Positions 14,342 to 31,994 of a stretch of 64,000 nt of DNA are shown here, piece after piece. Position numbers and translations under genes: made by a program. This stretch comes from an uncultured Roseovarius sp. (lineage in GTDB: Bacteria; Pseudomonadota; Alphaproteobacteria; Rhodobacterales; Rhodobacteraceae), in contig CANNCP010000004.1 in assembly GCA_947503145.1 (NCBI GenBank), positions 186,001-250,000 on the forward strand, in the 5' to 3' direction. The notes below the pieces were generated by a model. That model made no database searches and was not told where the DNA came from. It saw only the letters and a list, made by a program, of their open reading frames with translations. The first letter of the stretch is position 1; each line of letters begins with the position of its first letter.

Positions 14342-15448
14342 ATGAAAATCACCTCAATCGAAACCTTCACCGACGAATTCATCTGCTTTACCCGCGTAAC
14401 CGCCGAGGATGGCGCGCAGGGCTGGGGACAGGTCGCGCCCTACTATGCCGACATCACGGCGCATGTGGTCCACCGACAAGTGGCACCCTATGCGCTGGGT
14501 CGGGACACAGGCGACATCGACGCCATCCTGGAGACGGTCCGCGACCGCGAGCACAAATTCCCTGGCTCCTACCTGCGCCGGGCGATGGGTGGCCTCGACA
14601 CGGCGTTGTGGGACATGCGCGGGCGGCGCGAGGGCAAGCCGGTCTGCGCCCTGATCGGCGGCACGCCCGGCCCGATACGTGCTTATGGCTCATCAATGAA
14701 ACGCGACATCACCCCCCGCGATGAGGCGGACCGGCTGGTCCGGTTGCGCGACGAAAAGGGCTTTGACGCGTTCAAGTTCCGCATCGGCGCCGAGGTCGGA
14801 CATGATCAGGACGAATGGCCCGGCCGTACCGAAGAGATCGTGCCGACCATGCGCCGCGCGATGGGCGACGACATCGCACTGCTGGTGGATGCCAATTCCT
14901 GCTACTCGCCCGCCAAGGCCATCGAGGTGGCCCGGATGCTGGAGCAGCACGGCATCTCGCATTTCGAAGAGCCTTGCCCCTACTGGGAGTTCGCCCAGAC
15001 CAAGGAGGTGACCGACGCGCTCGATATTGACGTGTCCGGCGGCGAACAGGACTGCATGATGGCCAACTGGCGTAGCATGATCGACGGGCGTGTAGTGGAC
15101 ATATTACAGCCCGATATCTGCTATCTCGGCGGCCTCAGCCGCACGCTGCACGTGGCAAAGATGGCCGAGGCGGCGGGCCTGCCGATCACGCCCCACGCGG
15201 CCAATCTGTCAATGGTTACGCTGTTCACCATGCATCTGCTGCGGGCGATTCCAAACGCGGGAAAATATCTGGAATTCTCCATCGAGGGGCTGGATTACTA
15301 CCCTTGGCAGGACAAGATTTTCGCGAGCGATCCCTATGAGATCATAGACGGACATGCGACGGTTACGGACGTGCCGGGCTGGGGCGTGGAGGTCAACCCC
15401 GAGTGGCTGGCAAAAGCGGCGTACCGGGTGAGTGAACTGGACGGGTAA
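14342..15448 (+). CDS. enolase-superfamily enzyme (mandelate racemase / muconate lactonizing enzyme family)
   Basis: FKFRIG, metal-ligand motifs LLVDANS / FEEP / GGEQD, QPDICYLGG and PHAAN. Confidence 0.9.
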   Translation: MKITSIETFTDEFICFTRVTAEDGAQGWGQVAPYYADITAHVVHRQVAPYALGRDTGDIDAILETVRDREHKFPGSYLRRAMGGLDTALWDMRGRREGKPVCALIGGTPGPIRAYGSSMKRDITPRDEADRLVRLRDEKGFDAFKFRIGAEVGHDQDEWPGRTEEIVPTMRRAMGDDIALLVDANSCYSPAKAIEVARMLEQHGISHFEEPCPYWEFAQTKEVTDALDIDVSGGEQDCMMANWRSMIDGRVVDILQPDICYLGGLSRTLHVAKMAEAAGLPITPHAANLSMVTLFTMHLLRAIPNAGKYLEFSIEGLDYYPWQDKIFASDPYEIIDGHATVTDVPGWGVEVNPEWLAKAAYRVSELDG

Positions 15449-15498
15449 ACGCAGGTCTTTAATCCGGCAACTTCACGCGGCCTACACTCCAACAAAAA

Positions 15499-15528
15499 AG
15501 GCCCGTGCGGATCACTCCGCACGGGCCT
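15499..15528. terminator. bidirectional rho-independent terminator between convergent genes
   Basis: AGGCCCGTGCGG-atcact-CCGCACGGGCCT preceded by AAAAAA. Confidence 0.85.
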
Positions 15529-15565
15529 GATCTACTCGGTCAGCCAAAACTCAGGCCGCTCTGGA

Positions 15566-16840
15566 CTACTTGCGCACCGCTTCAATCGACGCCTCAAGGA
15601 TATCCAGCCCTTCGGCGAACACCTCGTCCTGCACCGTGATCGGCGCCAGGAAGCGGATGACGTTGCCATAGACGCCGCAGCTCAGCAGGATCAGCCCGCG
15701 CTTTTGTGCCTCGGCACGGATCGCGTTCACCATCTCGGGATTCGGCGATTTGCCGTCGGCCGTGTTGAACTCGGCCGCGACCATGAAGCCGGGACCGCGC
15801 ACATCGATGATCTCGGGTGTGGTGGCGCGGATCGATTCTAGCCGCTGCTTGAGCCGCGAGCCCAACTCGTTGGCGCGCGCACACAGGTCTTCTTCCTCGA
15901 TCACGTCGAGCACGGCATTGGCCGCCGCGATACCCAGCGGGTTGCCCCCATAGGTGCCGCCCAGACCGCCGGGATGGGCCGCATCCATCAGATCCGCGCG
16001 CCCGGTCAGCGCCGCCAGCGGCAGACCGCCCGCCAGCCCCTTGGCCATCGTGGTGATGTCGGCGGCCACATCGTAGCCCTCCATCGCAAAGAGGTGCCCG
16101 GTCCGGGCAAAACCGGTCTGCACCTCATCGGCAATCATGACGATACCATGCTCGTCGCACAGCTTGCGCAGGCCGCGCATCAACTCGACAGGTGCGGGGT
16201 AGAAACCGCCCTCGCCCTGCACCGGCTCGATGATGATCGCGGCGACGCGGTTGGGGTCGAGATCGGCCTTGAAGAGCTTGGTCAGCGCGCCCAGCGCCTC
16301 GTCCACGCCGGTGCCGTGCAGCTCGATCGGGAACGGCACGTGATAGACATCGGGCATCATCGCGCCAAAGCCTTTCTTGTACGGCACCACCTTGCCCGTG
16401 AGCGACATGCCCATGAAGGTCCGGCCGTGGAACGCCCCGCCAAAGGCGATGACAGCCGGGCGCTGGGTGGCAATCCGCGCGACCTTGATCGCGTTCTCGA
16501 CGGCTTCGGCACCGGTGGTCACGAACACGGTCTTTTTCTCGAAATTTCCCGGAACCTTTTGGTTCAGGCGTTCGGCCAGACGGACGTAATTCTCGTAGGG
16601 CAATACCTGATGGCAGGTGTGGGTGAAACGCGCGGCCTGTTCTGACACGGCGGCCATGACCCTGGGGTGGCAGTGGCCGGTGTTGACCACCGCGATGCCG
16701 GCAGCAAAGTCGATATAGCGATTGCCCTCCACGTCCCAGACTTCGGAATTCAGCGCGCGATCCACATAGATCTGGGTCATCATGCCCACGCCCTGACTGA
16801 CGGCAGCCTCGCGGCGCTTTGCGATGTCAGCGTTCAACAT
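15566..16840 (-). CDS. gabT: 4-aminobutyrate aminotransferase-like class III aminotransferase
   Basis: MLNADIAKRREAAVSQGVGMMTQIYVDRALNSEVWDVEGNRYIDFAAGIAVVNTGHCHP; PLP lysine context TTMAKGLAGGLPLAALTGRADLMDA. Confidence 0.9.
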   Translation of the reverse strand: MLNADIAKRREAAVSQGVGMMTQIYVDRALNSEVWDVEGNRYIDFAAGIAVVNTGHCHPRVMAAVSEQAARFTHTCHQVLPYENYVRLAERLNQKVPGNFEKKTVFVTTGAEAVENAIKVARIATQRPAVIAFGGAFHGRTFMGMSLTGKVVPYKKGFGAMMPDVYHVPFPIELHGTGVDEALGALTKLFKADLDPNRVAAIIIEPVQGEGGFYPAPVELMRGLRKLCDEHGIVMIADEVQTGFARTGHLFAMEGYDVAADITTMAKGLAGGLPLAALTGRADLMDAAHPGGLGGTYGGNPLGIAAANAVLDVIEEEDLCARANELGSRLKQRLESIRATTPEIIDVRGPGFMVAAEFNTADGKSPNPEMVNAIRAEAQKRGLILLSCGVYGNVIRFLAPITVQDEVFAEGLDILEASIEAVRK

Positions 16841-16945
16841 AACACTTCCTTTCAGCTATTCGGGCGACCTTGCCGCTCCGACTTTGATCCGCAGATAATA
16901 TGGTGTCCGGTTGTCCCTCATTCTAGTGGGGCTCAACCGTGGAAC

Positions 16946-17035
16946 TCACGCAGCTGCTATCACTTTCATGGCGGGCGTCATGCCGCGATGCTCATGTTGG
17001 GTCGCTCGTTGTTGTAAGTCCAGAGGGCTTTGATG
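16946..17035 (-). pseudogene. relic of an IS3-family transposase (OrfB) C-terminus
   Basis: Minus-strand IKALWTYNNERPNMSIA-(frameshift)-GMTPAMKVIAAA*, matching the recalled LWTYNNERPNMGIGGMTPAMKLKMAA-type C-terminus; no other part of the transposase present. Confidence 0.7.
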
Positions 17036-17061
17036 CAACAAAGCCGCTCAGGCCATAGAGG

Positions 17062-17898
17062 TTATTCCACTTCTTGGCGCTGTTTGCCCAGCTTTGCTAT
17101 TTCGGCGACGATGATGTCGCCTGACGCCAGGAAACGTTGTGGGTTCTGGCCCAGCCCCACCCCTTCAGGTGTGCCGGTAGAGATGATGTCGCCTGGCAGC
17201 AGGCGCATAAAGCTCGACATGTAGCTGATTATCTCGCTGACGCTGAAAATCATGTCGGCGGTCGAGCTATCTTGTTGCGTGTCCCCGTTGACAGACAGCG
17301 TCAGCGCCAAGTTCTGAGGATCCGCAACCTCATCCGGAGTGACGAGCCATGGTCCTACGGGGCCGAATCCGGGTGCTGACTTTCCCTTAATCCATTGGCC
17401 ACCGCGTTCGATCTGATAGGCGCGTTCGCTGATGTCGTTGACGGTGCAATAGCCGGCTACGTAGGACAGCGCATCGGCCTCACTCACGTGCTCGGCTGAG
17501 CGGCCGATGACAACACCAAGCTCGACCTCCCAATCGGTTTTGGCCGATCCTTGTGGCAGCACTAGCGGATCATTAGGACCGCTAAGGCAGGATGTTGCCT
17601 TTGAAAAGAGGACTGGTTCCAGAGGTTCGGGATTGCCCGTCTCGCGTGCGTGGCGTGCGTAATTCAGTCCTATGGCGTAGAAGTTCGGAGGACGTCCTAC
17701 GCAGGACCCGATGCGCACGCTCTCGTCTATCAACGGCAGCGCGGTGATATTGGTGTCGGACAACCGCGAAAGCGTCTCAATTGTTACGTTCTCGCTTGTA
17801 AAGTCAGCGACAAGGCCCGACAGGTCGCGGATGCGGCCATCCGCATCCAGACATCCCGGCTTTTCCTGACCAACCGGTCCAAAACGAAGAAATTTCAT
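17062..17898 (-). CDS. fumarylacetoacetate hydrolase (FAH) family protein
   Basis: IGLNYARHARETGNPEPLEPVLFSKATSCLSGPNDP...DWEVELGVVIG...ISTGTPEGVGLG. Confidence 0.92.
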   Translation of the reverse strand: MKFLRFGPVGQEKPGCLDADGRIRDLSGLVADFTSENVTIETLSRLSDTNITALPLIDESVRIGSCVGRPPNFYAIGLNYARHARETGNPEPLEPVLFSKATSCLSGPNDPLVLPQGSAKTDWEVELGVVIGRSAEHVSEADALSYVAGYCTVNDISERAYQIERGGQWIKGKSAPGFGPVGPWLVTPDEVADPQNLALTLSVNGDTQQDSSTADMIFSVSEIISYMSSFMRLLPGDIISTGTPEGVGLGQNPQRFLASGDIIVAEIAKLGKQRQEVE

Positions 17899-17938
17899 GT
17901 GGTTTTCCTAACTTTGATTACATGGGGTTCAGGCTGTT

Positions 17939-19546
17939 TTATGCGCGACCAAGGATCAGGTCCGCACCTTTTTCCGCGATCATCACCACGGGCGAGGCGG
18001 TGTTGCCGGACACGATACGAGGCATGATTGAGGCGTCGATCACGCGCAAGCCGCTCACACCGCGAACGCGCAACTCTGGGTCCACCACAGCGCTTTCATC
18101 TGCTCCCATGCGGCAGGTGCCGACGGGGTGAAATATGGTTGTGCCGATGTCACCTGCAACTCTGGCCAGTGCATCATCGCTTGCCACAGCCGCGCCTGGC
18201 AGATTTTCATGTGGCTGGTATTTTGCCAGCGCGGGCATCTGCATCAGCTCGCGCGCTTGCCTTAGTGCGCGCACCGCTGTGTCGCGATCGGCTGAGGCGC
18301 TCAGGTAGCCGGGGCGAATATCGGGGGTGCCATGCGGCGCATTCGCCGTAATATGAGTGCTGCCACGGCTTTCTGGGCGCAGGTTGCACACCGACACTGT
18401 AACTGCTGGATAGTGATGCAGGGGATCGCCCAGCTTGTCGGTGGACAGAGGCTGGATGTGATACTCCAGATCGGGCGTTTCGAGACGACGATCACTGCGG
18501 GTAAAGATACCCAATTGGCTGGGTGCCATCGACAGGGGGCCGCGCCGGTTCCACAAGTATTGCAAGCCCATACGCATCTTACCAGTCAGGCTGTTCGCCA
18601 TCTGGTTCAGTGTATGTGCATTATTCAGGCGGAAGATCATCCTGAGTTGAAGGTGGTCTTGTAGGTTCTCGCCAATCTCAGGTTGATGGGTGATCGGCAC
18701 AATTCCCGCCGCCTTCAGGCAATCTGCATCACCCAACCCGGATTTCTCCAGAAGTGCTGGTGAATGGATTGCGCCGGCAGCCACGATAACCTCTGCCTTG
18801 GCGGTGGCAACGCAGTGCGCCCCGCGATGACCGAATTCCACCCCACTGGCCTGTTTGCCGGTGAAGGTGATCCGATGCACTTCGGCATCCGTCAGCACCC
18901 GCAGGTTGGCGCGCTTGCGTACAGGTTTCAGAAAGGCCCGCGCAGTGCTCCACCGTAGACCGCGGTGCTGATTGACTTCGAAATAGCCCGAACCTTCGTT
19001 GCTGCCACTATTGAAATCGTCGCTGCGTGGCACACCCATTTGATCAGCGGCCAGCTGAAAATCGTCAAGCAGGTCCCATTTCAGCCGTTGGCGTGCCACT
19101 TTCCACTCCCCGCCCGTGCCGTGAGTGACGCTGGCAGGACCGGGGCGGTCCTCGGACCGTGTAAAATAGGGCAGAACATCGTCCCACCCCCAGCCTATAT
19201 TTCCCATCTGTCGCCAGTTGTCGTAATCTGTTGCTTGACCGCGCATATAGATCATCCCGTTGATCGAACTGCACCCTCCCAAGAGCTTGCCGCGTGGATA
19301 AGCCAGGCTGCGCCCATTCAGTCCCGGCTCAGCGGCCGTGTGCATCATCCAGTCTGTGCGGGGGTTCCCCATGCAATAGAGATATCCGATGGGGATATGT
19401 ACCCAGTGATAACGATCGCTGCCGCCCGCCTCCAGCAACAGCACGCGGTTTCCCGGAGTCTCCGACAGCCGGTTGGCCAACACGCAGCCGGCCGTTCCGC
19501 CGCCGATAATGATATAGTCGTATTCACCCTCTGATCTGGCTTGCAT
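17939..19546 (-). CDS. GMC-family oxidoreductase (choline dehydrogenase-like), second paralogue in window
   Basis: [67 protein letters not shown]. Confidence 0.92.
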
Positions 19547-19597
19547 AGTAAACTTGTTCCTAGATGGTTTGACGGCGACGCCATCAAGGCGCCCATG

Positions 19598-20926
19598 TCA
19601 ATATATGGCAATGGCCGGAAAGATGAGAAGTAGCCCGACCGCGATGACCTGAAGGCAGATGAAGGGAACCAACGACCGGAATATCTCGCCCAGGGTGATC
19701 TCGGGTGGTGTCACGCTTTTCAGATAGAACGCCGCCGGGCCGAACGGCGGTGTAAGAAACGACACTTGCATGTTCATCGCAAAGAGCACGCCAAACCAGA
19801 CCGGATCATAGCCCAGATCCCTGATGATTGGCACGAAGATTGGCATTGTTAGTAGCGCGATCCCGACCCAATCCAGGAACATGCCCAATAGAAACAGGAT
19901 CGCCATCATCAAAAGGATTATGGTCATCGGATTGTCCGACACGCCAGTAATCAGTTGCGAGATAAAGCGGATGCCTCCCATGAGGTTATAAACCCCTACC
20001 AGCGCACTGGCGCCAACGCCTATCCAGACGATCATGCCGACCGTGGCCAGCGTATGGATTGCGGCATCCAGCATCATACGCATCGAGAATTCGCCTCGGA
20101 GGATTGTTGACAAGACGACACCCGCGACGCCAATTGCCGACGCCTCGGTGACTGACGCGATCCCACCGTAAATCGAACCGAGCACGCAAAAGACCACGAG
20201 CATAGGCAACGCGAGCCCATGCAGCAACGGAAGCTGAGTCCGCAGCGGAATGCGTTCGGGCTCAGGCGCGGGGGCGGCGTTCGGATCCAGGTAGCAACGG
20301 ATCAGGATATAGCTGATGTAAAGGGCCGCCAGCATGAAACCCGGCACGAAGGACGCCGTGAATAGATCGCCGACCGAGACGTTAGCCGTTAGCCCATAAA
20401 TAATAAGCACGATTGAGGGTGGAACCATCGTGCCCAGCGACCCGCCGGCACAGACCACGCCAATAGCGAGGCGCCTATTGTAGCCCTGTCGCAACATTTG
20501 TGGCAGAGCTACAAGGCCCAGCAGCACGATCTCGCCGCCGATGATGCCGCTCATCGCGGCCAGAATAACGGCGACAAAGATTGTCTGCACAGCCACACCG
20601 CCGCGTAGACGGCCGCCAACCAGCTTCATAGCGTCAAAGAGATCACGCGCTATTCCCGAACGGTCGAGAATAGCGGCCATCAGCACGAACATCGGCACTG
20701 ATACAAAGACGAAGGATGAAACGAAGCTGTAGACGCGGCTCGTAATGAGAGGCACCGACATAGGGCCGAACCAGCCAAGAGCAAAAATAAGCGCGACCAG
20801 CAGCGTCACCATCGCGAGCGGCGTTCCGGTCAACAAGAGCGTCACCAGCATCACGAACATCACCAGCGTCGCCCAGCCAATGCCGAGATCGCGAAAGTCG
20901 AAACTAAAGTCTAGAAGCTCGATCAT
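19598..20926 (-). CDS. TRAP transporter large permease subunit (DctM)
   Basis: Long hydrophobic protein with DctM-type PPSIVLIIYG and LTPPFGPAAFYLK. Confidence 0.93.
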   Translation of the reverse strand: MIELLDFSFDFRDLGIGWATLVMFVMLVTLLLTGTPLAMVTLLVALIFALGWFGPMSVPLITSRVYSFVSSFVFVSVPMFVLMAAILDRSGIARDLFDAMKLVGGRLRGGVAVQTIFVAVILAAMSGIIGGEIVLLGLVALPQMLRQGYNRRLAIGVVCAGGSLGTMVPPSIVLIIYGLTANVSVGDLFTASFVPGFMLAALYISYILIRCYLDPNAAPAPEPERIPLRTQLPLLHGLALPMLVVFCVLGSIYGGIASVTEASAIGVAGVVLSTILRGEFSMRMMLDAAIHTLATVGMIVWIGVGASALVGVYNLMGGIRFISQLITGVSDNPMTIILLMMAILFLLGMFLDWVGIALLTMPIFVPIIRDLGYDPVWFGVLFAMNMQVSFLTPPFGPAAFYLKSVTPPEITLGEIFRSLVPFICLQVIAVGLLLIFPAIAIY

Positions 20927-21516
20927 TGAGCGACCTCATCTGCAGGTTTGATGCCACGCGCGTAATTTATCGCCAGCACCAGAAACTGGGCGCCCATCAC
21001 CATCAGAACGGCCAGCAGAAAGATCTTCATCATCGCGGGTGTCGGGGAATTCCAGGCGCTACCGCTGGCTTCCATATAAAAACTACCATCGGGGCGAAAT
21101 ATCGCCTTCTTCACCATCAACCACGACGCCCAGGCAAAAAACAGGCTGGCAGTGAGGCAGGTCAGGGAAATCACAATGTCGAAAATTCGGCGGGTCCGCG
21201 GTCCAACCAGGTCATAGATCAGCACGACACGAATATGTGTGTTACGCGCAACGCAGTATAGCCCACCGTAGATAAAGGTGATGCCGCTCAGGAATATCGT
21301 CGTCTCATGGGCCCAGATCGTCGGCGCATTGAAGACGTAACGCAGGAATACCTCCATCACGAGCACGACGACTGCGATCAGAATCCCGGCTCCGAACAGG
21401 ACAGAGCCCCGCCCGATCAGCCAGCCCAGCCAACCCGCTTCGGGAAGGGTTTCGGGCATTGGATACCGTCCCTTCTGCGTGTCTTCGGTGCGGCCTTCGT
21501 CGGTCGGTAAAGTCAT
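20923..21516 (-). CDS. TRAP transporter small permease subunit (DctQ)
   Basis: Four-helix protein, ATGA overlap with DctM. Confidence 0.88.
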   Translation of the reverse strand: MTLPTDEGRTEDTQKGRYPMPETLPEAGWLGWLIGRGSVLFGAGILIAVVVLVMEVFLRYVFNAPTIWAHETTIFLSGITFIYGGLYCVARNTHIRVVLIYDLVGPRTRRIFDIVISLTCLTASLFFAWASWLMVKKAIFRPDGSFYMEASGSAWNSPTPAMMKIFLLAVLMVMGAQFLVLAINYARGIKPADEVAQ

Positions 21517-21611
21517 GGACGTATCTCCGCCTTGGGGTATGTAGGATGCCGGAAACATTACGCGGCACGGGATGAGCCATGATCCCGCGCCGCGCATAGG
21601 TAGGACGCTGC

Positions 21612-22628
21612 TTAGTCAAGCAAGCCCTGCTCATCGAGATATGTCGTCAGGGTATCATAGACCTTTTGCGCATTCTCTGAACGCTCGGCGACCTTCGCCC
21701 ATTGGTCCATCGCAATAGTGCGGAATTTGGCACGTTCTTCGGCAGGCCAATTATGCACGGTGATGTTGGGGTCAGCCTTGGCCTCGGCATAAGCCGCCAT
21801 GTCATTCATCGATAGTACGGCCACCATGTCCTGCGCGAGATCGCGCACTGAAACCGTCATGATCGCCTGAAGATCGGCCGGCAGTGAATTCCACTTGTCG
21901 AGGTTCATGGAAACCTCAACCAGCGGCATCGAGTGAAAGCCGGGATAAACGGGGTTATTACCGACCTTATGCAAACCTTGCTGATGGTTAGTTGAGAATA
22001 CTGTAGAATCAGCCGCGTCGATCACCCCCTTATCGAGGGATGTATAGACTTCTGCATATGGGAGGTTGACCGGAACGGATCCGGCGGCGGCAAAGACCTC
22101 CTGAATCAGACCTTCGGGAGCGCGCACCTTAAGCCCCTTCAGGTCGGCCACACCGTTGAGCGGCTTTTTAGAGACAAAACCCTCTAACCCGGTCGTGGTC
22201 GCGCCGACAAAATGCAGCCCGTAAGGGTTTTCAAGTTCGTTCATCAATTCGTATCCGCCACCATAGTTGATAAAGCGGAACATTTCGTTTGGATCGGACC
22301 AGGCTCCGATGGGGTTGGCCGCTAGACCAAAGGCCGGATCCTTGCCTGAGAAATAACTGATATCGGTAATGTGGCCGTCCAGAATTCCTGCACCAACAGC
22401 GTCCTGAGTCTCGTTATACTCTACCACGGCACCGACCGGCAGCAATTCGATGATCAAGCGCCCACCGGACATTTCCGCAACGCGGTCGGTCCAGGCGTCC
22501 TGGATACCGAAATTCGGGTTCCCCGCCGGGTCTACCGACTGGAACGTGAATTCAAAGTTTTCTGCCGCAGCAGCTGTCCCCGTCAGAAGACCGGCCACAA
22601 CTACATAATTCAAGATATTGGATTTCAT
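21612..22628 (-). CDS. TRAP transporter substrate-binding protein (DctP)
   Basis: Signal peptide then FEFTFQSVDPAGNPNFGIQDAWTDRVAEMSGGRLIIELLPVGAVV. Confidence 0.92.
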   Translation of the reverse strand: MKSNILNYVVVAGLLTGTAAAAENFEFTFQSVDPAGNPNFGIQDAWTDRVAEMSGGRLIIELLPVGAVVEYNETQDAVGAGILDGHITDISYFSGKDPAFGLAANPIGAWSDPNEMFRFINYGGGYELMNELENPYGLHFVGATTTGLEGFVSKKPLNGVADLKGLKVRAPEGLIQEVFAAAGSVPVNLPYAEVYTSLDKGVIDAADSTVFSTNHQQGLHKVGNNPVYPGFHSMPLVEVSMNLDKWNSLPADLQAIMTVSVRDLAQDMVAVLSMNDMAAYAEAKADPNITVHNWPAEERAKFRTIAMDQWAKVAERSENAQKVYDTLTTYLDEQGLLD

Positions 22629-22726
22629 GGTTTTCCTCCCTTTGCGAGCACGCCAAGTAGTGATCCCGTGCCCATGGATCGTCTTTTGTATGATCACGTC
22701 GGCTCAACAGCCACATGACCGACTTG

Positions 22727-23761
22727 TCAGGCAGCTCCCCGCTTGGTTGATGCCGGGTTGTTCACCAAATTGCGCATCCGTCCATCACGGAGAAACTGCA
22801 CCGCCGTTTCCACTGATAGCCGCCGTGCGTCGGCGACGCTTTCGGGGCTGGACCACGCAGCATGCGGCGTGACGAAAAGCCGCTCACCGACCAGTGCGTC
22901 ATGCCCGCCCGCATAAGCGATAGCTATTGCATCACTAGGTGACGGTGGTTCAGTTGGCAGAACGTCGATGCCGGCGCCGGCGATAGTTCCATCGCGCAAA
23001 GCTTCGATCAGTGCCTCAATATCCACGATGGCACCGCGCGCGGTGTTGATCAGGATCGCGGATTTCCGCATCATGCTTAGTCGATCGGCGTTGATCATCG
23101 CCCCCGTATCGGCGGTCAGCGGGCAGTGCAAACTGACGACATCGCTTTGCTCCAGCAGTTCTTCGATACTATCGCACCGGTCGACGCCAACGGCGATCTC
23201 TGTGCCGCGCGAAACCTGCGGATCATAGGCCAGAACGCGCATCCCGAAAGCCTTGGCTCGCAGCGCAGCCGCCGTCCCGATTCGGCCCAGCCCGACGATC
23301 CCAAAAGTCTGACCTCGCAGCCGCCCAAGCAGTGGAGCACGGCTATGGTCAAAGCCCTCTTGCGGCGACGCCATCAGATTGCGGTGATAGGACGCGATGC
23401 CCCGCCGCATTGTCAGCATGAGTGCAACCGCGTGATCGGCCACCTCGCTGGTACCGTAATCCGGCGTATTGCAGACGGGAATGCCCGCGCGCGCCGCACT
23501 GTCCAGGTCGATGTGGTCGAACCCGACACCCGCGCGCACTATAATCCGGCAGTTTTTCAGCTTGGAAATGAGGGCAGCATCAATCGGCATTTCGTGCCAG
23601 ACAACCATCGCATCACAACGCGCGAATGCTTCGTCCGGGATGCATTCCGGCGATCTTTCGCGAAAGATATCCCACGTAACGCCAGTGCCAGCCGTAGCGC
23701 GTTCGATCAGCGCATCGTCGGCATATTGCGCATCAGGTGTCAGAAGGCGGAAACTTTGCAT
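22727..23761 (-). CDS. D-isomer specific 2-hydroxyacid dehydrogenase family protein
   Basis: GQTFGIVGLGRIGTAAALRAKAFGMRVLAYDP; INTARGAIVDIEALIEALRDGTIAGAGIDVLPTEP. Confidence 0.93.
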   Translation of the reverse strand: MQSFRLLTPDAQYADDALIERATAGTGVTWDIFRERSPECIPDEAFARCDAMVVWHEMPIDAALISKLKNCRIIVRAGVGFDHIDLDSAARAGIPVCNTPDYGTSEVADHAVALMLTMRRGIASYHRNLMASPQEGFDHSRAPLLGRLRGQTFGIVGLGRIGTAAALRAKAFGMRVLAYDPQVSRGTEIAVGVDRCDSIEELLEQSDVVSLHCPLTADTGAMINADRLSMMRKSAILINTARGAIVDIEALIEALRDGTIAGAGIDVLPTEPPSPSDAIAIAYAGGHDALVGERLFVTPHAAWSSPESVADARRLSVETAVQFLRDGRMRNLVNNPASTKRGAA

Positions 23762-23821
23762 GTGTAACCTCGCATATTCAACTTGGCTTGCCAGCAACAT
23801 AGTCAGCGGCAGCGCTCTTAC

Positions 23822-23839
23822 ATTCTAGAATTCTAGAAT
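23822..23839. promoter_or_regulatory. putative operator: perfect 18-bp palindrome ATTCTAGAATTCTAGAAT
   Basis: Perfect palindrome made of overlapping TTCTAGAA units in the divergent promoter of the dehydrogenase and GntR regulator. Confidence 0.55.
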
Positions 23840-23923
23840 TTACTTCTCTTGTCAATCGTCTATTATTACTTTTAACAAGAGTCAGGATTTCTGGGCATCC
23901 GGACGATCATCGCGCCGCCCGGC

Positions 23924-24661
23924 GTGGCCCTACAACTGCCCCGAGAGGAGAGTCACTTGTCGTTGACACAAAAAGCTTGTGAGCAAATTCGTCGCGCTAT
24001 CGTAACGGGTGGGTTCGAATTCGGTGAGCGACTGTCGGAGGTGCAGGTTGCCCGCGCCCTCGGGATGAGCAAGGCACCCGTTCGCGCCGCATTCATAGAA
24101 CTGCGCGACATGGGCCTGGTCACCATCGTTCCGCAGGCCGGTACTTACGTATTCACCCCCACCTCAGGTGACGTGGCCGAAATGAGCGGCTTTCGCGCCA
24201 TGCTCGAAGACGAGGCGCTACGAATGGCGATGGATTTTGCACCCGAAGCCGTCACGCGCGGCCTGACCTCTGCGATCGAGCGCATGACAGAAGCGATTGA
24301 TACCGATAAGTGGCATCTTTACAGCGAGGCCGACAGCGCCTTTCACATGGTGCTCCTCCAGCAGGCGGGTAATAAATACCTCGAAAAGGCCTATGGGTTG
24401 ACCGCGACCGCATTGGAAGCCCTGCGAGCCCGGCTTCAATCGGGTGAAGGCGATTTCTGGAAAAGGTCATATTCCGAGCACATACAGATACGCGATGCGC
24501 TTGCTGTTGGAGATGTAGAAAGTGTGCGGCCAATCTTGCGCGAACATATTCTTATCATCAATCGCTCGCTGGAAATCCCGGGGGATCACCTGCAAGAGCG
24601 CGATAAATCGCGGCGCAGGTCGGACGAGGAATATGCCGATCTTCTGGCGCCGATACGTTGA
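23924..24661 (+). CDS. GntR-family (FCD-domain) transcriptional regulator
   Basis: HTH LTQKACEQIRRAIVTGGFEFGERLSEVQVARALGMSKAPVRAAFIELRDMGLV; C-terminal FCD-like helical domain; GTG start. Confidence 0.92.
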   Translation: MALQLPREESHLSLTQKACEQIRRAIVTGGFEFGERLSEVQVARALGMSKAPVRAAFIELRDMGLVTIVPQAGTYVFTPTSGDVAEMSGFRAMLEDEALRMAMDFAPEAVTRGLTSAIERMTEAIDTDKWHLYSEADSAFHMVLLQQAGNKYLEKAYGLTATALEALRARLQSGEGDFWKRSYSEHIQIRDALAVGDVESVRPILREHILIINRSLEIPGDHLQERDKSRRRSDEEYADLLAPIR

Positions 24662-24784: not shown

Positions 24785-24901
24785 CTAAAGCGTTCCGCGA
24801 AAAGCCTGAATCACAGCTTTTCACGGAACGCAGCGATACATATGAGCATTGCACGCATTCCGCCTTAACTGAGTGCTCAGGTTTAAGGCGGAATGCTTTA
24901 G
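24785..24901. repeat. compound palindromic (MITE/REP-like) element with two internal hairpins
   Basis: Ends CTAAAGCGTTCCGC...GCGGAATGCTTTAG (terminal inverted repeats, 1 mismatch); internal hairpins GCGTTCCGcGAAAAGC/GCTTTTCaCGGAACGC and GCATTCCGCCTTAA/TTAAGGCGGAATGC. Confidence 0.8.
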
Positions 24902-26403
24902 CGGCGCTTGCCGGCCACGATGCGATCAAGGATGAGGGCGCAGAAAAGGATGGCAAGACCTGCCAGAATCCCCTGCCCCGCCGCCGCGTATTGAAGTGCC
25001 TCCAACACGTCTTCACCCAGCCCTTTGGCTCCGATAAGTGAGGCGACAACGACCATGGCGAGAGACAGCAGAATGGTCTGGTTGACCCCTGCCATGATGG
25101 TGCGCGCCGCCAGAGGCAGATCCACACGCCATAACAGATAGCGCGGCGTCGCACCAAAAGCGAGCGCAGCCTCGCGGATCGAATCGGGCACCTGTTGCAG
25201 GCCCAGAACCGTAAAACGGATCACCGGTGGGCTGCCGAAAATCATCGTGGCGACAACGCCTGCAGGCTTGCCCGACCCGATGAACGCAACGACCGGGATC
25301 AGATAGACGAAAGAGGGCATCGACTGCATGAAATCGAGGATCGGACGCACGATTGCAAAGGTGCGCGGACGTCGCGCGCAATAGATGCCCAACGGGATGC
25401 CAAGACTGATCGAGATCAGCGCAGCGGCCCCCAGCAGCGAGATTGTCGCCATCGCCTTTTCCCAAAAGTCGAGCAGCCCCAGATAGGCCAGTGCCGCCGT
25501 CGTAAAAATCGCGACGCGCGGCCCGCCTGTGAGATAGCCCAGCAGTATGACAACCAGCGCAACAACCGGCCATGGCGTGCCCACGAATACGATCTCGAGC
25601 CCGTCCAGGAGCATGCGCATTCCGAATGTGATCGTATCGAAAAACCCACGCCCGGCGGTCTTGGTCCAATCAAACGCCGCCTGGATGCCATCGCCCACGC
25701 CAAGCCGCCATGTTCGGTTGGTCGGAAATTCGCTAAGTAGGGGGATGGCCTCGGGCTGAGCAAACTTGAGTGTGCTTGGAGCCATGACAAGGCCGAAAAG
25801 CAAGGTGGCAAGGCCCGTCCTGGTCCAGGACCAGCCATGCGCGAACGAGCGATCTGACCGCCAGCGCGCGAACTGCCCCTCCAGCGCCCAGTTCGCAATC
25901 GACGCTGCCAGAACTTTGAAGGCGATCAACAATGCCAGCCCCACCAGGACATAGAACAGCCCCGTCGCATCAGCAGTGGTGGCGGTAAGTTCCGCCTGCT
26001 TCAGCGCATCTTGCAGGGATTCGGTGGCACGTTTCAATGCATCCAACGTCGAGGCGCCGGATTGTTCCGCAGCGCTGATCTGTTGCTGGCGCAGATCCAG
26101 CGTTTCGGCAATGCGCGCAGCCCGTTCGCGTGCATCTCGTCCAAGATCGCCGAACAGGCCGCGCCCGATCTGGATGAAGGCCAGCGTTTCCAGCAGCATG
26201 AATATCAGGAACCACGACCACAGGCCGCGCGCCCCGAACCAGATCGGCCCCAGCAACCCCGCCGCACCGTTCAGCGTAAAGCGATAGCCGGGAGCCTGCA
26301 TGACATAGGCGAAAACCCGGCGATAGTAACCGCGGTTCTGCCCTACGAAATTGTCGATCAGCGGGTTGAGCCGCGTCACGGCCTCTGTGCTGGATTCTTC
26401 CAT
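24898..26403 (-). CDS. ProW-like quaternary amine ABC transporter permease with long N-terminal membrane extension
   Basis: C-terminal half with ProW-type RPILDFMQSMPSFVYLIPVVAFIG and REAALAFGATPRYLLWRVDLPLAARTIMAG. Confidence 0.9.
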   Translation of the reverse strand: MEESSTEAVTRLNPLIDNFVGQNRGYYRRVFAYVMQAPGYRFTLNGAAGLLGPIWFGARGLWSWFLIFMLLETLAFIQIGRGLFGDLGRDARERAARIAETLDLRQQQISAAEQSGASTLDALKRATESLQDALKQAELTATTADATGLFYVLVGLALLIAFKVLAASIANWALEGQFARWRSDRSFAHGWSWTRTGLATLLFGLVMAPSTLKFAQPEAIPLLSEFPTNRTWRLGVGDGIQAAFDWTKTAGRGFFDTITFGMRMLLDGLEIVFVGTPWPVVALVVILLGYLTGGPRVAIFTTAALAYLGLLDFWEKAMATISLLGAAALISISLGIPLGIYCARRPRTFAIVRPILDFMQSMPSFVYLIPVVAFIGSGKPAGVVATMIFGSPPVIRFTVLGLQQVPDSIREAALAFGATPRYLLWRVDLPLAARTIMAGVNQTILLSLAMVVVASLIGAKGLGEDVLEALQYAAAGQGILAGLAILFCALILDRIVAGKRR

Positions 26404-26414
26404 TTCCCGGCTCC

Positions 26415-27464
26415 TCAGGACTGGTTGTTTCGGATCGCACGCATCAACATCGGACGGTTGAGCACACCGATGGTAGCCCCATCCTGAACAACTCGCATGA
26501 TACCGTGCCCGTCGACGCAAAGGTCGATCAGCGTGTTCAGATCCATGTCGGGATGCGCCACGGTGGCATCCGCTGGCACCTTGGAATAAGTGGCCTCGAA
26601 CTGCTCAAGAGGGCGCATCACCGAATGCGCGAAGATCATGTTCAGCTTGGAAATACCGGCAACAAAATCGGCGACATATTGATCAGCCGGATTAAGAATG
26701 ATCTCTTCCGGAGTGCCGATCTGAACGATGCGGCCATCCTTCATGATCGCTATGCGGTTGCCGATCCGGATCGCCTCATCCAGATCGTGGGTAATGAACA
26801 TCGTGGTTTTATTCAGCCTTTTCGACAGCTTGATGAACTGATCCTGAAGCTGTCTGCGGATCAGTGGGTCTAGTGCCGAAAATGGCTCGTCCATCAGCAG
26901 GATGTCGGGGTCCGAGGCGATGGCGCGGGCGATGCCCACCCGTTGTTGCATGCCGCCGGATAATTCATGGGCATATCTGTCCTCCCAGCCGGTCAATTCG
27001 ACGAGGTCCAGAACCCTGTCAGCTTCCTGCCAGCGGCGTGCCTTGCCGGTGCCCCTGATTTCAAGGGGCATCGCCACGTTGTCCCGCACTGTGCGATGTG
27101 GCATCAGACCAAAATTCTGAAACACCATGCCGACCCGCCGATTGCGCAGATTGCGTAATCCTTGGTCGTTCAGGGACATCACATCTTCGCCCCCGATCAG
27201 GATCTGCCCCGCCGTGGGTTCAAGCAGGCGGTTAACATGTCGCACAAGCGTCGACTTGCCCGACCCGGACAGGCCCATCACGCAAAACAATTCACCCGAG
27301 CGGACCTGAAACGTCGCGTCAGCAACGCCGACGACGCAATTGAACCGCTTGAGCACCTCGGGCTTGCCGATCCCTTCGGACCGGATGGCGGCCATTGCTT
27401 CATCTGCGCGCAGGCCAAATACCTTCCAAACGTTACGTGCGTCTATAGCGATGTCATTTGCCAT
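26415..27464 (-). CDS. ProV-like quaternary amine ABC transporter ATPase
   Basis: MGLSGSGKSTLVRHVNRLLEPTAGQILIGGEDV; LSGGMQQRVGIARA; C-terminal CBS-like segment. Confidence 0.93.
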   Translation of the reverse strand: MANDIAIDARNVWKVFGLRADEAMAAIRSEGIGKPEVLKRFNCVVGVADATFQVRSGELFCVMGLSGSGKSTLVRHVNRLLEPTAGQILIGGEDVMSLNDQGLRNLRNRRVGMVFQNFGLMPHRTVRDNVAMPLEIRGTGKARRWQEADRVLDLVELTGWEDRYAHELSGGMQQRVGIARAIASDPDILLMDEPFSALDPLIRRQLQDQFIKLSKRLNKTTMFITHDLDEAIRIGNRIAIMKDGRIVQIGTPEEIILNPADQYVADFVAGISKLNMIFAHSVMRPLEQFEATYSKVPADATVAHPDMDLNTLIDLCVDGHGIMRVVQDGATIGVLNRPMLMRAIRNNQS

Positions 27465-27525: not shown

Positions 27526-28491
27526 TCAATTAAGGCCAAGCCAGCCGTCCACCATTTCGCCATTCGCGCCGATCCATTCGGACACGACCTCCGCGATCTC
27601 GCGACCCTGGACGACAACCTCATATGTCATCTGAGAAAGCTGATCCGCCTCCATGTCGATATTGGCAAGAAAGGAGGCTGCAACGGGATTGCGCGTTTCC
27701 AGAGATTTGGAATAGGCCACCGTCACCGTCTTGACCTGATCGCCTGTCAGTATCTTCGAGTTTTCAAACCAGTCTGCATCCTGATCCGGCTGCACCATCG
27801 TGTATTGATCCGGTTCATAGGCGGGTTCCTCGATCATGGTGATGTCATAAAGTGCGTGGACGTAATGCGGGCTGTAACAGTAAAAGGCAACGCCCTCATG
27901 CTGATCGATCGCGTCCTTCAGCCGGGAATAAAACACGGTTTCGTCCTCGGTTCCGGGCTCCAGAAAGGACTCGATTCCATAGTCGCGCACCTTGACCTTG
28001 TGCACGTTGGTCGATGCCCAGCCAGAGGCGCCAACCCAGATCTCGCCCTTGCCATCGCCGTTCGAATCAAACAGGGCTTCCGCTGCGGGCGTAGCAAGAT
28101 CGAAGATTGATTTGATGTTGTGCTCTTCAGCCATGTAGGTCGGCGTGCAAAAGCCGGACCGCCCCTCATAAGATCCCGACGACACTGCCACAGTGCCCTT
28201 GCCATCGACGAACTCGTCAATGAACGAAGCCTGATTAGGTAGCCAGACGTCCGGGTGAACGTCGATATCGCCGCGCCCGCCATCCATCGCCTCAAAGATC
28301 ACCGCATTTGCTCCCGGCGCATAGCCAATCTCGCCGCCGAGGCGGGTTTCGATGACCTGGCCGATCACATTCGCCATGATCTTGGCGCCCGGCCAGCTGG
28401 GTTCACCAACCACGACCTTTTCCTGTGCCCCGGCGGTTGTCGCCGCGATCGCTATGACCAGGGCCGCGCTTGTTGTCCTCATGTGTTTCAT
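27526..28491 (-). CDS. ProX/OpuAC-like glycine betaine-type substrate-binding protein
   Basis: Signal peptide; EKVVVGEPSWPGAKIMANVIGQVIETRLGGEIGYAPGANAVIFEAMDGGRGDIDVHPDVWLPNQ. Confidence 0.93.
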   Translation of the reverse strand: MKHMRTTSAALVIAIAATTAGAQEKVVVGEPSWPGAKIMANVIGQVIETRLGGEIGYAPGANAVIFEAMDGGRGDIDVHPDVWLPNQASFIDEFVDGKGTVAVSSGSYEGRSGFCTPTYMAEEHNIKSIFDLATPAAEALFDSNGDGKGEIWVGASGWASTNVHKVKVRDYGIESFLEPGTEDETVFYSRLKDAIDQHEGVAFYCYSPHYVHALYDITMIEEPAYEPDQYTMVQPDQDADWFENSKILTGDQVKTVTVAYSKSLETRNPVAASFLANIDMEADQLSQMTYEVVVQGREIAEVVSEWIGANGEMVDGWLGLN

Positions 28492-28523: not shown

Positions 28524-30848
28524 TCAGGCTCTTGCCCGCGTTCTTTTGGGATCGACAAAGGGAATATCCACGACCGTCACGCCCAACCGCTTCATGTGCC
28601 CGTCCATCATTCCGACCTCCAGGTCGGTGCCGTTTTCCGCATATTCGACGGCAAGCCGCGCCATCGCGATGGTGCAGTTCAGCATTGGCGAGCGCGTCGC
28701 AGATGTGATGACACCGACCTGTCGCTCGCCGGCGAAAACCGGCGTACCATGCGCGGGCACGTCGGTGCACTGAAAGACAAGACCCTTGAGGATGCGCCTG
28801 GGGTCTTTTGAATTGCGCACCAGCGCGGCCTTGCCGGTAAAATCTGCCTTCTCCAGATCCACCGCAAATCCGAGACCGGCCTCAAAGGCATCGCCCCCCG
28901 GCGCGAACTCGGCATTGGCTGCGGCAAGGCCGGCCTCGATGCGGATGATCTCAAGCGCGGCGGCCCCCATCGGCGCAAGTCCAAAGTCCTGACCTGCCTC
29001 CATGATTGCATCCCACAGCGCAACCGCGTCGGACTTGGCGCAGAACAACTCATACCCCAACTCGCCGGTATAGCCCGAGCGAGACAGCATGAAGGGAATG
29101 CCGTCGCGATCACCAATGCGCGCGACCGTCACACCGAACCACTTTATCTGATCCAGCGACGGAACATTCGGCTGGGTAAAGATGATCTTGCTCAGAAGAT
29201 CGCGTGATTTCGGGCCCTGCAACGCCAGATTGGGCAGCGCATTGCGCATTGCGTTTATGCGCACCTGAAGCCCTTCCCGTTCGGCCAACTCGTTCAGAAC
29301 GCGCCCACTCTGCTCATTGCCGCAGCACCAGCGGAACAACTCCGGTCCGATCCGGAAAAGCGTGCCGTCGTCGATCACCGCTCCGCCGACATCACACATC
29401 AGCGTGTAGGTGCCGCGCCAGACCGGCAGCTTTGCGATGTTGCGCGTCAACGCCATCTGCAACAGCCGTTCGGCATCCGGGCCGATGATATCGTATTTCC
29501 TGAGCCCACTCATATCCTGTAGGGTCACCGCGTTGCGGCAGGCCCAATATTCCCCGGTTGTCCCGATTGAAGGAAACGAGACTGGCGCCCACAGATCGCG
29601 CACAGGCGTGAAGTGCTGTGTGAGCGGGGCAAGGCGCGCATGAAAGGCGGATTCCTGGCTGATCGACATGGGAGCGTCCTCTTTCTCACGATAGGCTACC
29701 GCGCGGCGGATGGGGGTATCGGATCGGTAAATCCGCACATGGATGTCCGTTGGGTTCCATCCGTTGATCGGGTCGATATCATCGGGACAGGCCGTCGAGA
29801 CGCAGACCAGATCGGCCAGAGCGCGCATGATCACATAATCGCCGGGACGCGAATGGGATTCCTCGGTCAGGATGTGATGCGATGCAGCATCGATCCAGGT
29901 GTTCCAGAAGAAATTGATCGCTGGCCAGGCCGGCCGACGCGCAACCCCGAAGGGCCCAAGCACGTGGGAGATGTTGTCCGAACAGTTCAGATGCCCCGGA
30001 AACCCCCGGTCTTCGTATACCCGCGCCGAACAGGCCAACCCCAACGTGTCGTGCCGCCCGCATGTATCTTGAACGACGCTCAGCAATGGCTGCATCTCAT
30101 TGTCGTAAAACTTGTCAAACAGCCCCGGACCGGGGTAGGAGCGCCGCACCATCGTCCGTGTCACGGTGCCATCAATCAAAAGCTCCCGCCCTGCATGCAG
30201 CCCGTCAGCACGGAACGCCATGAAATCCGAGCATTGCTGCCCCTCAATGTCGATAATCTGGACATATTCGCCCTGGCGCAGTTCATAAGCGCGCGCAGTT
30301 CCGCGCGAGACAGTAAACTCTTCGCGCACATCCCCCAGAAGCGGCGGCAACAAGACATCGCTGGCCTTGGCGGGCTGATGCGCAACATGGACAGTGCCAC
30401 CTGCGCCGCAGGAAACCAGATGGTCCGGACGGGCCGGCTGTGCCACCCAGACCGTGCAGGCACGCGTCGCCCCGAGCACGATGGTATCATCGGTCCCGAC
30501 AATCCATGCGGCGTCTGGTGGCGCGACCGCCGAGCCGCCGTTGCGGGCGATCCAGCCCAACAATGGCGCACTGTCAAAATCGTCTAACTGCACCGTTGCA
30601 TCACCTGCAAGTCCCAGCCCGGACAGCGCCGAACGCCCGCGTTCATCAAAGGCCATGACGATGACGCCATCCCCCGAGCGCATACCGCTGAGTGACAAAA
30701 GGTCGCCCGCAGCCACATCAAAGCGGACCGCATCGCGCGGCGCAATCAGCCGGTTGTCTGCCGTCGGCTTTGCGAAACCGGGAAACGACCGCGCGGACGA
30801 GGTGAAACCGATATTGCTGAGCGTGTGGATGACATTGCTTTGGTGCAT
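28524..30848 (-). CDS. fusion protein: N-terminal DUF1989 (urea carboxylase-associated) domain plus C-terminal GcvT/aminomethyltransferase domain
   Basis: 774 aa; DUF1989-type GEYVQIIDIEGQQCSDFMAF...CGRHDTLGLAC...NCSDN...INFFWNT, then GcvT-type MSISQESAFHARLAPLTQHF...FMLSRSGYTGELGYELFC. Confidence 0.85.
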   Translation of the reverse strand: MHQSNVIHTLSNIGFTSSARSFPGFAKPTADNRLIAPRDAVRFDVAAGDLLSLSGMRSGDGVIVMAFDERGRSALSGLGLAGDATVQLDDFDSAPLLGWIARNGGSAVAPPDAAWIVGTDDTIVLGATRACTVWVAQPARPDHLVSCGAGGTVHVAHQPAKASDVLLPPLLGDVREEFTVSRGTARAYELRQGEYVQIIDIEGQQCSDFMAFRADGLHAGRELLIDGTVTRTMVRRSYPGPGLFDKFYDNEMQPLLSVVQDTCGRHDTLGLACSARVYEDRGFPGHLNCSDNISHVLGPFGVARRPAWPAINFFWNTWIDAASHHILTEESHSRPGDYVIMRALADLVCVSTACPDDIDPINGWNPTDIHVRIYRSDTPIRRAVAYREKEDAPMSISQESAFHARLAPLTQHFTPVRDLWAPVSFPSIGTTGEYWACRNAVTLQDMSGLRKYDIIGPDAERLLQMALTRNIAKLPVWRGTYTLMCDVGGAVIDDGTLFRIGPELFRWCCGNEQSGRVLNELAEREGLQVRINAMRNALPNLALQGPKSRDLLSKIIFTQPNVPSLDQIKWFGVTVARIGDRDGIPFMLSRSGYTGELGYELFCAKSDAVALWDAIMEAGQDFGLAPMGAAALEIIRIEAGLAAANAEFAPGGDAFEAGLGFAVDLEKADFTGKAALVRNSKDPRRILKGLVFQCTDVPAHGTPVFAGERQVGVITSATRSPMLNCTIAMARLAVEYAENGTDLEVGMMDGHMKRLGVTVVDIPFVDPKRTRARA

Positions 30849-30871: not shown

Positions 30872-30907
30872 TGAAACTAGTTACAATACTGAATGTAACT
30901 AGTTACA
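30872..30907. promoter_or_regulatory. two putative LacI-family operators (TGAAACTAGTTACA and TGTAACTAGTTACA), 22 bp apart
   Basis: Perfect 14-bp palindrome at 30894-30907 and a near-identical copy at 30872-30885, between divergent genes. Confidence 0.7.
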
Positions 30908-30950: not shown

Positions 30951-31994
30951 ATGTTGACGACAGGCGGTAAAAAGCGGGCAAATTTGCGGGACGTCGCCAA
31001 GATGGCAGGCGTTTCAGTGGCCACTGTTTCGCGGGTTCTGAATTCACCCGGATCGGTCACAGAGCGAACCCGTGCCCGCGTGTTGGTCGCCATAGACGAA
31101 CTACGCTTTGTGCCAAGTGCTGCGGCGAGAGCGATAAATTCTGGGCGCACGCGGATCGTGGGCGCACTGATTCCGACGCTGGACAATGCGATTTTCGCGC
31201 GCTTCCTCGATGCGGTCGAAAGGCATCTGGCGCCGCATCAACTATCGTTGATCGTGGCCACTACCAATGGCGATGCCGCGACCGAGCGGGAAAAAGCGCA
31301 GAACCTTGTCGATATCGGCGCCGAAGGGTTGATCGTATCGGGAATCCATCACAGTCAGGAATTTCTTGATCTGGTAACCAAGAACCAACTACCGGTCATC
31401 GTGACATCCTATTTCGACGCACAATACCGGCTGCCGACGATCGGCTATGACAACCGCGTCGCGGCCCGTGTCGCAGCGCGGCATCTGTTCGATCTTGGCC
31501 ATACCGAAATCGCCGTGATCCACGGGCCGCGCCGAAGCAACGACCGCACCAGTGCCCGTATCGCAGGGATCGAAGAGGCGGAACTGATGACAAAACTGGT
31601 CTTTCACGAGGTTGATCTTTCGGTCGCGGGCGGGTGCGCCGCTGTTCAGGCGCTTGTCGCATCGGGCGAGAGCGTCAGCGCCATCCTGTGTCTGTCGGAT
31701 GTTCTAGCCATGGGCGCACTGTTCGAGCTTGATCGCGCAGGCCTCAAGGTGCCGCTGGATATATCCGTGATGGGGATCGACGATCTGCCCGGGTCTTCCT
31801 TCACCGCTCCCGCCTTGACCAGCGTTCACTTGCCGGTGCAGGAAATGGGTGCCCAGGCAGCCAAGGCACTGTCGGCCTGGATCGAAATGGGCCAAGTGCC
31901 CGATCCCGTCGCCTTGAGTTCCAACCTGGTTGTCCGGCATTCCACTGCGAAAAACGGTAACCTGAATCGCCCCGATTTTAGCCGAGACCCATAG
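30951..31994 (+). CDS. LacI-family transcriptional regulator
   Basis: NLRDVAKMAGVSVATVSRVLNSPGSVTERTRARVLVAIDELRFVPSAAARAINSGRT. Confidence 0.96.
   Translation: MLTTGGKKRANLRDVAKMAGVSVATVSRVLNSPGSVTERTRARVLVAIDELRFVPSAAARAINSGRTRIVGALIPTLDNAIFARFLDAVERHLAPHQLSLIVATTNGDAATEREKAQNLVDIGAEGLIVSGIHHSQEFLDLVTKNQLPVIVTSYFDAQYRLPTIGYDNRVAARVAARHLFDLGHTEIAVIHGPRRSNDRTSARIAGIEEAELMTKLVFHEVDLSVAGGCAAVQALVASGESVSAILCLSDVLAMGALFELDRAGLKVPLDISVMGIDDLPGSSFTAPALTSVHLPVQEMGAQAAKALSAWIEMGQVPDPVALSSNLVVRHSTAKNGNLNRPDFSRDP

Follow-up and report, generated by a model that had tools for sequence, protein, structure and literature searches.

What does a protein that joins a DUF1989 domain to a GcvT unit do at the head of a ProXVW-type importer operon, and which compound does it act on? 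The question arises from a 64,000-nt stretch of DNA from an uncultured Roseovarius sp. (hereafter, the window), in which a single open frame on the (−) strand (28524..30848) encodes such a fusion of 774 aa. To our knowledge, Tdm, the TMAO demethylase, is the only DUF1989-GcvT enzyme of known reaction.

Architecture of the fusion and its likeness to Tdm

Pfam placed DUF1989 at residues 179–348 (147 bits), GCV_T at residues 403–662 (191 bits), and GCV_T_C, the C-terminal barrel, at residues 688–766 (62 bits), all above the curated cut-offs, with the GcvT unit complete across residues 403–766. The initial annotation had described this DUF1989-GcvT fusion correctly but had overlooked an N-terminal domain (residues ~30–160), for which no Pfam domain is listed and which forms a folded region in the AlphaFold model. 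With a diverse alignment as input, this model reached a pTM of 0.82, whereas with close relatives alone it stayed poor (pTM 0.36). Foldseek matched the DUF1989 fold of the model to 3siy (TMt 0.75) and its GcvT fold to 1yx2, and both domain assignments were thus borne out by Pfam, AlphaFold, and Foldseek. The solved Tdm structure 9q59 was not among the Foldseek matches listed for the model (library entries up to April 2026), so that structure gives support at the level of domains only.

In sequence searches, 9q59 was the best solved match of the fusion (E = 9e-186, residues 166–773), and NF053776, TMAO demethylase, was its best curated family; identity to the solved Tdm amounted to 51% over DUF1989 and 44% over GcvT. 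Since DUF1989-GcvT fusions have been characterized as Tdm (PDB 9q59, 9q5a, and 9q5l; NF053776; PMC12560246), the protein is not of an undescribed kind, and its layout, being the same as that of Tdm, represents an already known architecture, a likeness that had escaped the initial annotation. Specifically, Tdm of Methylocella silvestris consists of DUF1989, GcvT, and an additional N-terminal DUF1989-like domain (PMC12560246), and the fusion has domain order, length, and catalytic and metal residues in common with it. The residues named for Tdm, whose metal site sits in the DUF1989 part, are D198, C263, H276, C279, C343, and D346 (PMC12560246); all of them were matched (97–100%) in 96 window-group sequences, and their predicted equivalents in the fusion are D208, C273, H286, C289, C354, and D357. 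Conservation of 97–100% was found in both the window-type clade and true Tdm, and the loss of DUF1989 ligand residues that the initial annotation had named as a point against itself was therefore not observed. The GcvT part of Tdm also lacks two THF contacts of E. coli GcvT (Arg223 → Leu and Tyr101 → Phe; PMC12560246), and the fusion shares these losses (L632 and F498, respectively), which makes the originally proposed THF methyl acceptor uncertain. DmdA, the DMSP demethylase, is likewise a GcvT-fold demethylase family, but it has no DUF1989 domain, and the fusion scored 130 against a cut-off of 410 on NF009133.

Separation from true Tdm and from the TMAO pathway

Despite this likeness, the NF053776 score of the fusion (1,054 bits) fell 4% short of the curated cut-off of 1,100 bits that served as the Tdm equivalog threshold. 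Two samples were scored: 397 genomes from the family, of which 99 gave a match, and 395 genomes from the order, of which 104 did. In both, the scores formed two bands, 987–1,080 (window type) and 1,113–1,244, and no value fell between them once a gene divided between two contigs was left out. The two bands occurred together in six genomes of the first sample (397 genomes). Rhizobium Tdm, which lies beside dmm and glnT, scored 1,276 although it belongs to another order, indicating that the gap between the bands is not a matter of taxonomic distance. In a tree, the low-band proteins tested formed one clade with a support of 100/100, comprising 16 proteins of the window group and 4 of a sister group, and both the solved Tdm and Rhizobium Tdm fell outside the window clade; L064, a truncated low-scoring protein, grouped with true Tdm. 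We found ~46 positions conserved differently between the window clade and true Tdm, including Tyr289 → Gly/Val and Tyr295 → Phe (solved Tdm numbering; loop between two metal ligands). We dropped a Gln204/Arg difference close to the DUF1989 motif as a mark of specificity, since Arg also occupies this position in one stand-alone DUF1989 protein encoded by the same genome. Judged from its sequence, the fusion is a paralog or sister of Tdm and not an ordinary Tdm. Literature searches retrieved no study of the window-type clade, but the earlier suggestion of an undescribed catabolic route is not supported in that form: although no substrate has apparently been described for this clade, the kind of fusion is already characterized as Tdm, with its substrate assigned in the sister clade and not in the window clade.

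The foremost alternative is that the fusion is a divergent TMAO demethylase whose importer pocket binds TMAO in another way, with formaldehyde used for carbon and energy and dimethylamine excreted or handled elsewhere. We regard this as possible but rather unlikely. Turnover of TMAO is conceivable, given identical catalytic residues and a score only 4% under the cut-off, and the common architecture, the strong match to the solved Tdm, and the quaternary-amine type of the importer fit it, as does the marine origin of many holders, since TMAO occurs in the sea; the separate clade and score band and the genomes that hold both types argue against it. The rest of the TMA/TMAO pathway also argues against it. 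We compared 13 genomes with the window type only and 17 genomes with true Tdm, each of a different genus, counting TmoX at ≥65% identity and tdm-linked Dmm at >200 bits. Tmm was found in 0 of 13 window-type-only versus 15 of 17 true-Tdm genomes (Fisher p = 2e-6), TmoX in 0 of 13 versus 11 of 17 (p = 3e-4), tdm-linked Dmm in 0 of 13 versus 7 of 17 (p = 0.01), and GmaS in 2 of 13 versus 16 of 17 (p = 2e-5), all p values being uncorrected for relatedness. None of the four was found in the window's own genome. A lack of Dmm is by itself compatible with the use of TMAO, as SAR11 grows on TMAO without dmmDABC (PMC8918994) and several true-Tdm genomes also lack tdm-linked Dmm. In a subclade of true Tdm (L071, L068, and L069), TmoXVW-type importer genes are located immediately upstream or nearby, with no local dmm.

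The importer, its operator, and the distribution of the module

The fusion is followed on the (−) strand by proX (27526..28491), encoding a ProX-like periplasmic binding protein of 321 aa, proV (26415..27464), encoding a ProV-like importer ATPase, and proW (24898..26403), encoding a ProW-like permease, and lacI (30951..31994), encoding a LacI-family regulator of 347 aa, diverges from it on the (+) strand. Importer gene starts were trimmed to conserved ATGs, giving MANDIAIDARNVWKVFG for ProV and MEESSTEAV for ProW. This gene order agrees with the initial annotation, which was also right to link a demethylase to a quaternary-amine importer. Just past lacI, the (−) strand carries genes for the ribosomal proteins S5, L18, L6, S8, S14, L5, L24, and L14 (32463–36047; assigned by sequence). 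On the other side of the operon, the region 14342–24661 holds genes for a TRAP-type transporter, a GMC oxidoreductase, a fumarylacetoacetate-hydrolase-like protein, a class III aminotransferase, a 2-hydroxyacid dehydrogenase, and a GntR regulator, which looks like a separate organic-acid pathway.

The importer resembles TmoXVW (TmoX PDB 4xz6) in its ProX-type binding protein with a Trp box, its ProV-type ATPase, and its ProW-type permease, but the window ProX is slightly nearer to E. coli ProX than to TmoX (38 versus 30 bits), and the ATPase and permease are nearest to choline ABC transporter models, both below cut-off. TmoX binds TMAO through its Trp box, Phe106, and Glu131, which are reportedly conserved in Roseobacter and SAR11 TmoX, and the corresponding Glu-to-Ala and Phe-to-Ala changes in SAR11 TmoX abolish or severely reduce TMAO binding (PMC8918994). 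The window ProX keeps the aromatic box (W33, W83, W158, and Y206) but has no counterpart of Glu131 or Phe106, so that the full TMAO pocket of TmoX (four Trp, Phe106, Glu131, and Phe220) is absent while the Trp box is largely retained. Across ProX proteins of about 80 window-type loci (62 of importer type 1 and 21 of type 2), the Trp/Tyr box was likewise kept, its last position being Tyr in type 1, with Glu131 replaced by A/T/S/Q and Phe106 by Q/H/W/R. By these residues, the window importer is not a TmoX, yet an onium group, quaternary or similar, should still be bound by it; the loss of both TMAO-binding residues counts against TMAO as the imported compound.

Between lacI and the fusion lies a conserved two-site operator, TGTAACYRGTTWCA (30872–30907), which the initial annotation had missed. 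Predicted operator 1 (30894..30907) is a perfect palindrome, TGTAACTAGTTACA, located immediately 3′ of a (−)-strand TTGACA hexamer, and predicted operator 2 (30872..30885), TGAAACTAGTTACA, is a near copy of it at a distance of 22 bp. At least 76 of 100 loci have the motif ahead of the fusion. In a search of 19 genomes, 15 held the motif, with all exact matches at the fusion locus and no further regulon members, and no additional sites were found in the window's own genome with one mismatch allowed. As the matches are confined to the fusion locus, LacI is probably a single-target regulator, on the evidence of its predicted sites, and the pathway self-contained. In comparison, tdm and tmm are under TmaR/TmoR control (PMC13390433), a difference that again speaks against a divergent TMAO demethylase. 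Relative to Tdm, the fusion therefore differs not only in its clade below the equivalog cut-off but also in its regulator, its importer, and its lack of association with tmm, dmm, and gmaS.

Counted over 101 related loci, the whole module (lacI, the fusion, proX, proV, and proW) was present in 75, which shows that the arrangement is not due to chance. Two importer subtypes and differing gene orders were seen among the 101 loci. The named holders include Paracoccus, Ruegeria, Leisingera, Roseibium, Tropicimonas, Roseobacter, and an uncultured Granulosicoccus, and many holders are marine. On plasmid p599725 of Paracoccus seriniphilus (L043, 15001–17248), the ortholog of the fusion has been annotated as a pair of overlapping genes, with an apparent frame shift within the N-terminal part.

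Proposed reaction and candidate substrates

Homology, domain order, catalytic residues, the operon, its operator, and the genomic separation from the TMA/TMAO pathway are the observations from which we infer an activity and a class of substrate. With an importer and a putative repressor of its own, in marine-type hosts that mostly lack the rest of the TMAO pathway, the fusion probably demethylates a different compound. We thus favor, with some reservation, a Tdm-type demethylase acting on an imported compound other than TMAO, and the combined evidence tilts to a similar degree toward a difference in substrate as such. Most likely, the compound is an N-methylated onium compound, quaternary-ammonium or otherwise, or else an amine N-oxide. 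ProXVW would bind the compound through a cation-pi interaction with its aromatic box and import it, the metal-centered DUF1989 site would N-demethylate it with the methyl group leaving as formaldehyde, and the GcvT domain may handle or release the one-carbon unit. LacI, bound at the two operator sites ahead of the fusion, would repress the operon. Recurrent catabolic neighbors were sought in the 101 loci, and none was widespread, with only small local groups (taurine-type and Tct-type transporters) seen; as no dedicated downstream enzyme is linked, the demethylated product would enter housekeeping metabolism.

The local groups suggest a special case of this explanation, in which the substrate is an N-methylated taurine or another sulfonate or carboxylate betaine and the product feeds into taurine or amino-acid catabolism. 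Genes for a TauABC-like transporter and a class III aminotransferase adjoin lacI and the fusion in L091, L106, L107, and L145 (Roseibium/Labrenzia), and the same cluster with the transporter genes reversed occurs in L104 (Paracoccus zeaxanthinifaciens); in L107 and L145, which lack proXVW, the taurine-type transporter is the only one seen beside the fusion. Where proXVW is missing in L045 and L058, the surroundings of the fusion include genes for a tripartite tricarboxylate-type (Tct-type) transporter and for two-component regulators, and the transporter genes can be counted in favor of this special case. We consider a substrate of this kind improbable and the taurine-related substrate a weak lead from five loci, given that the cluster was seen in only ~5 of 101 loci, that the near-identity of L107 and L145 leaves few independent cases, that the binding protein scored 155 against a taurine equivalog cut-off of 304, and that no supporting literature was found. 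The original proposal that one polypeptide both demethylates and removes a second group, for example by deiminating an N-methylated guanidine in the manner of carboxyguanidine deiminase, draws on the DUF1989 fold that the fusion shares with the urea-amidolyase-associated proteins UAAP1 and UAAP2, but these stand alone, the fusion stays far below the cut-offs of the UAAP/carboxyguanidine deiminase models TIGR03424 and TIGR03425 (87 versus 285 and 60 versus 206 bits), and its whole architecture is that of Tdm, which makes this reading highly improbable.

For the preferred explanation, a Tdm-type demethylase of a compound other than TMAO, the wider form is a widespread and dedicated import-and-demethylate module of the Rhodobacterales that applies Tdm chemistry to another marine onium compound or N-oxide, and to this form we give an even chance. 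If true, metal-dependent N-demethylation of the Tdm type would extend beyond TMAO. Annotation by homology would name the window type a TMAO demethylase and so overstate the number of TMAO-degrading bacteria. Because the operon is self-contained, a single binding protein and a single enzyme suffice to test the question. Many genomes of Ruegeria, Leisingera, Roseibium, and Paracoccus hold this sister clade together with an importer and a probable single-target regulator of its own, which points to the use of another methylated compound, probably in the sea.
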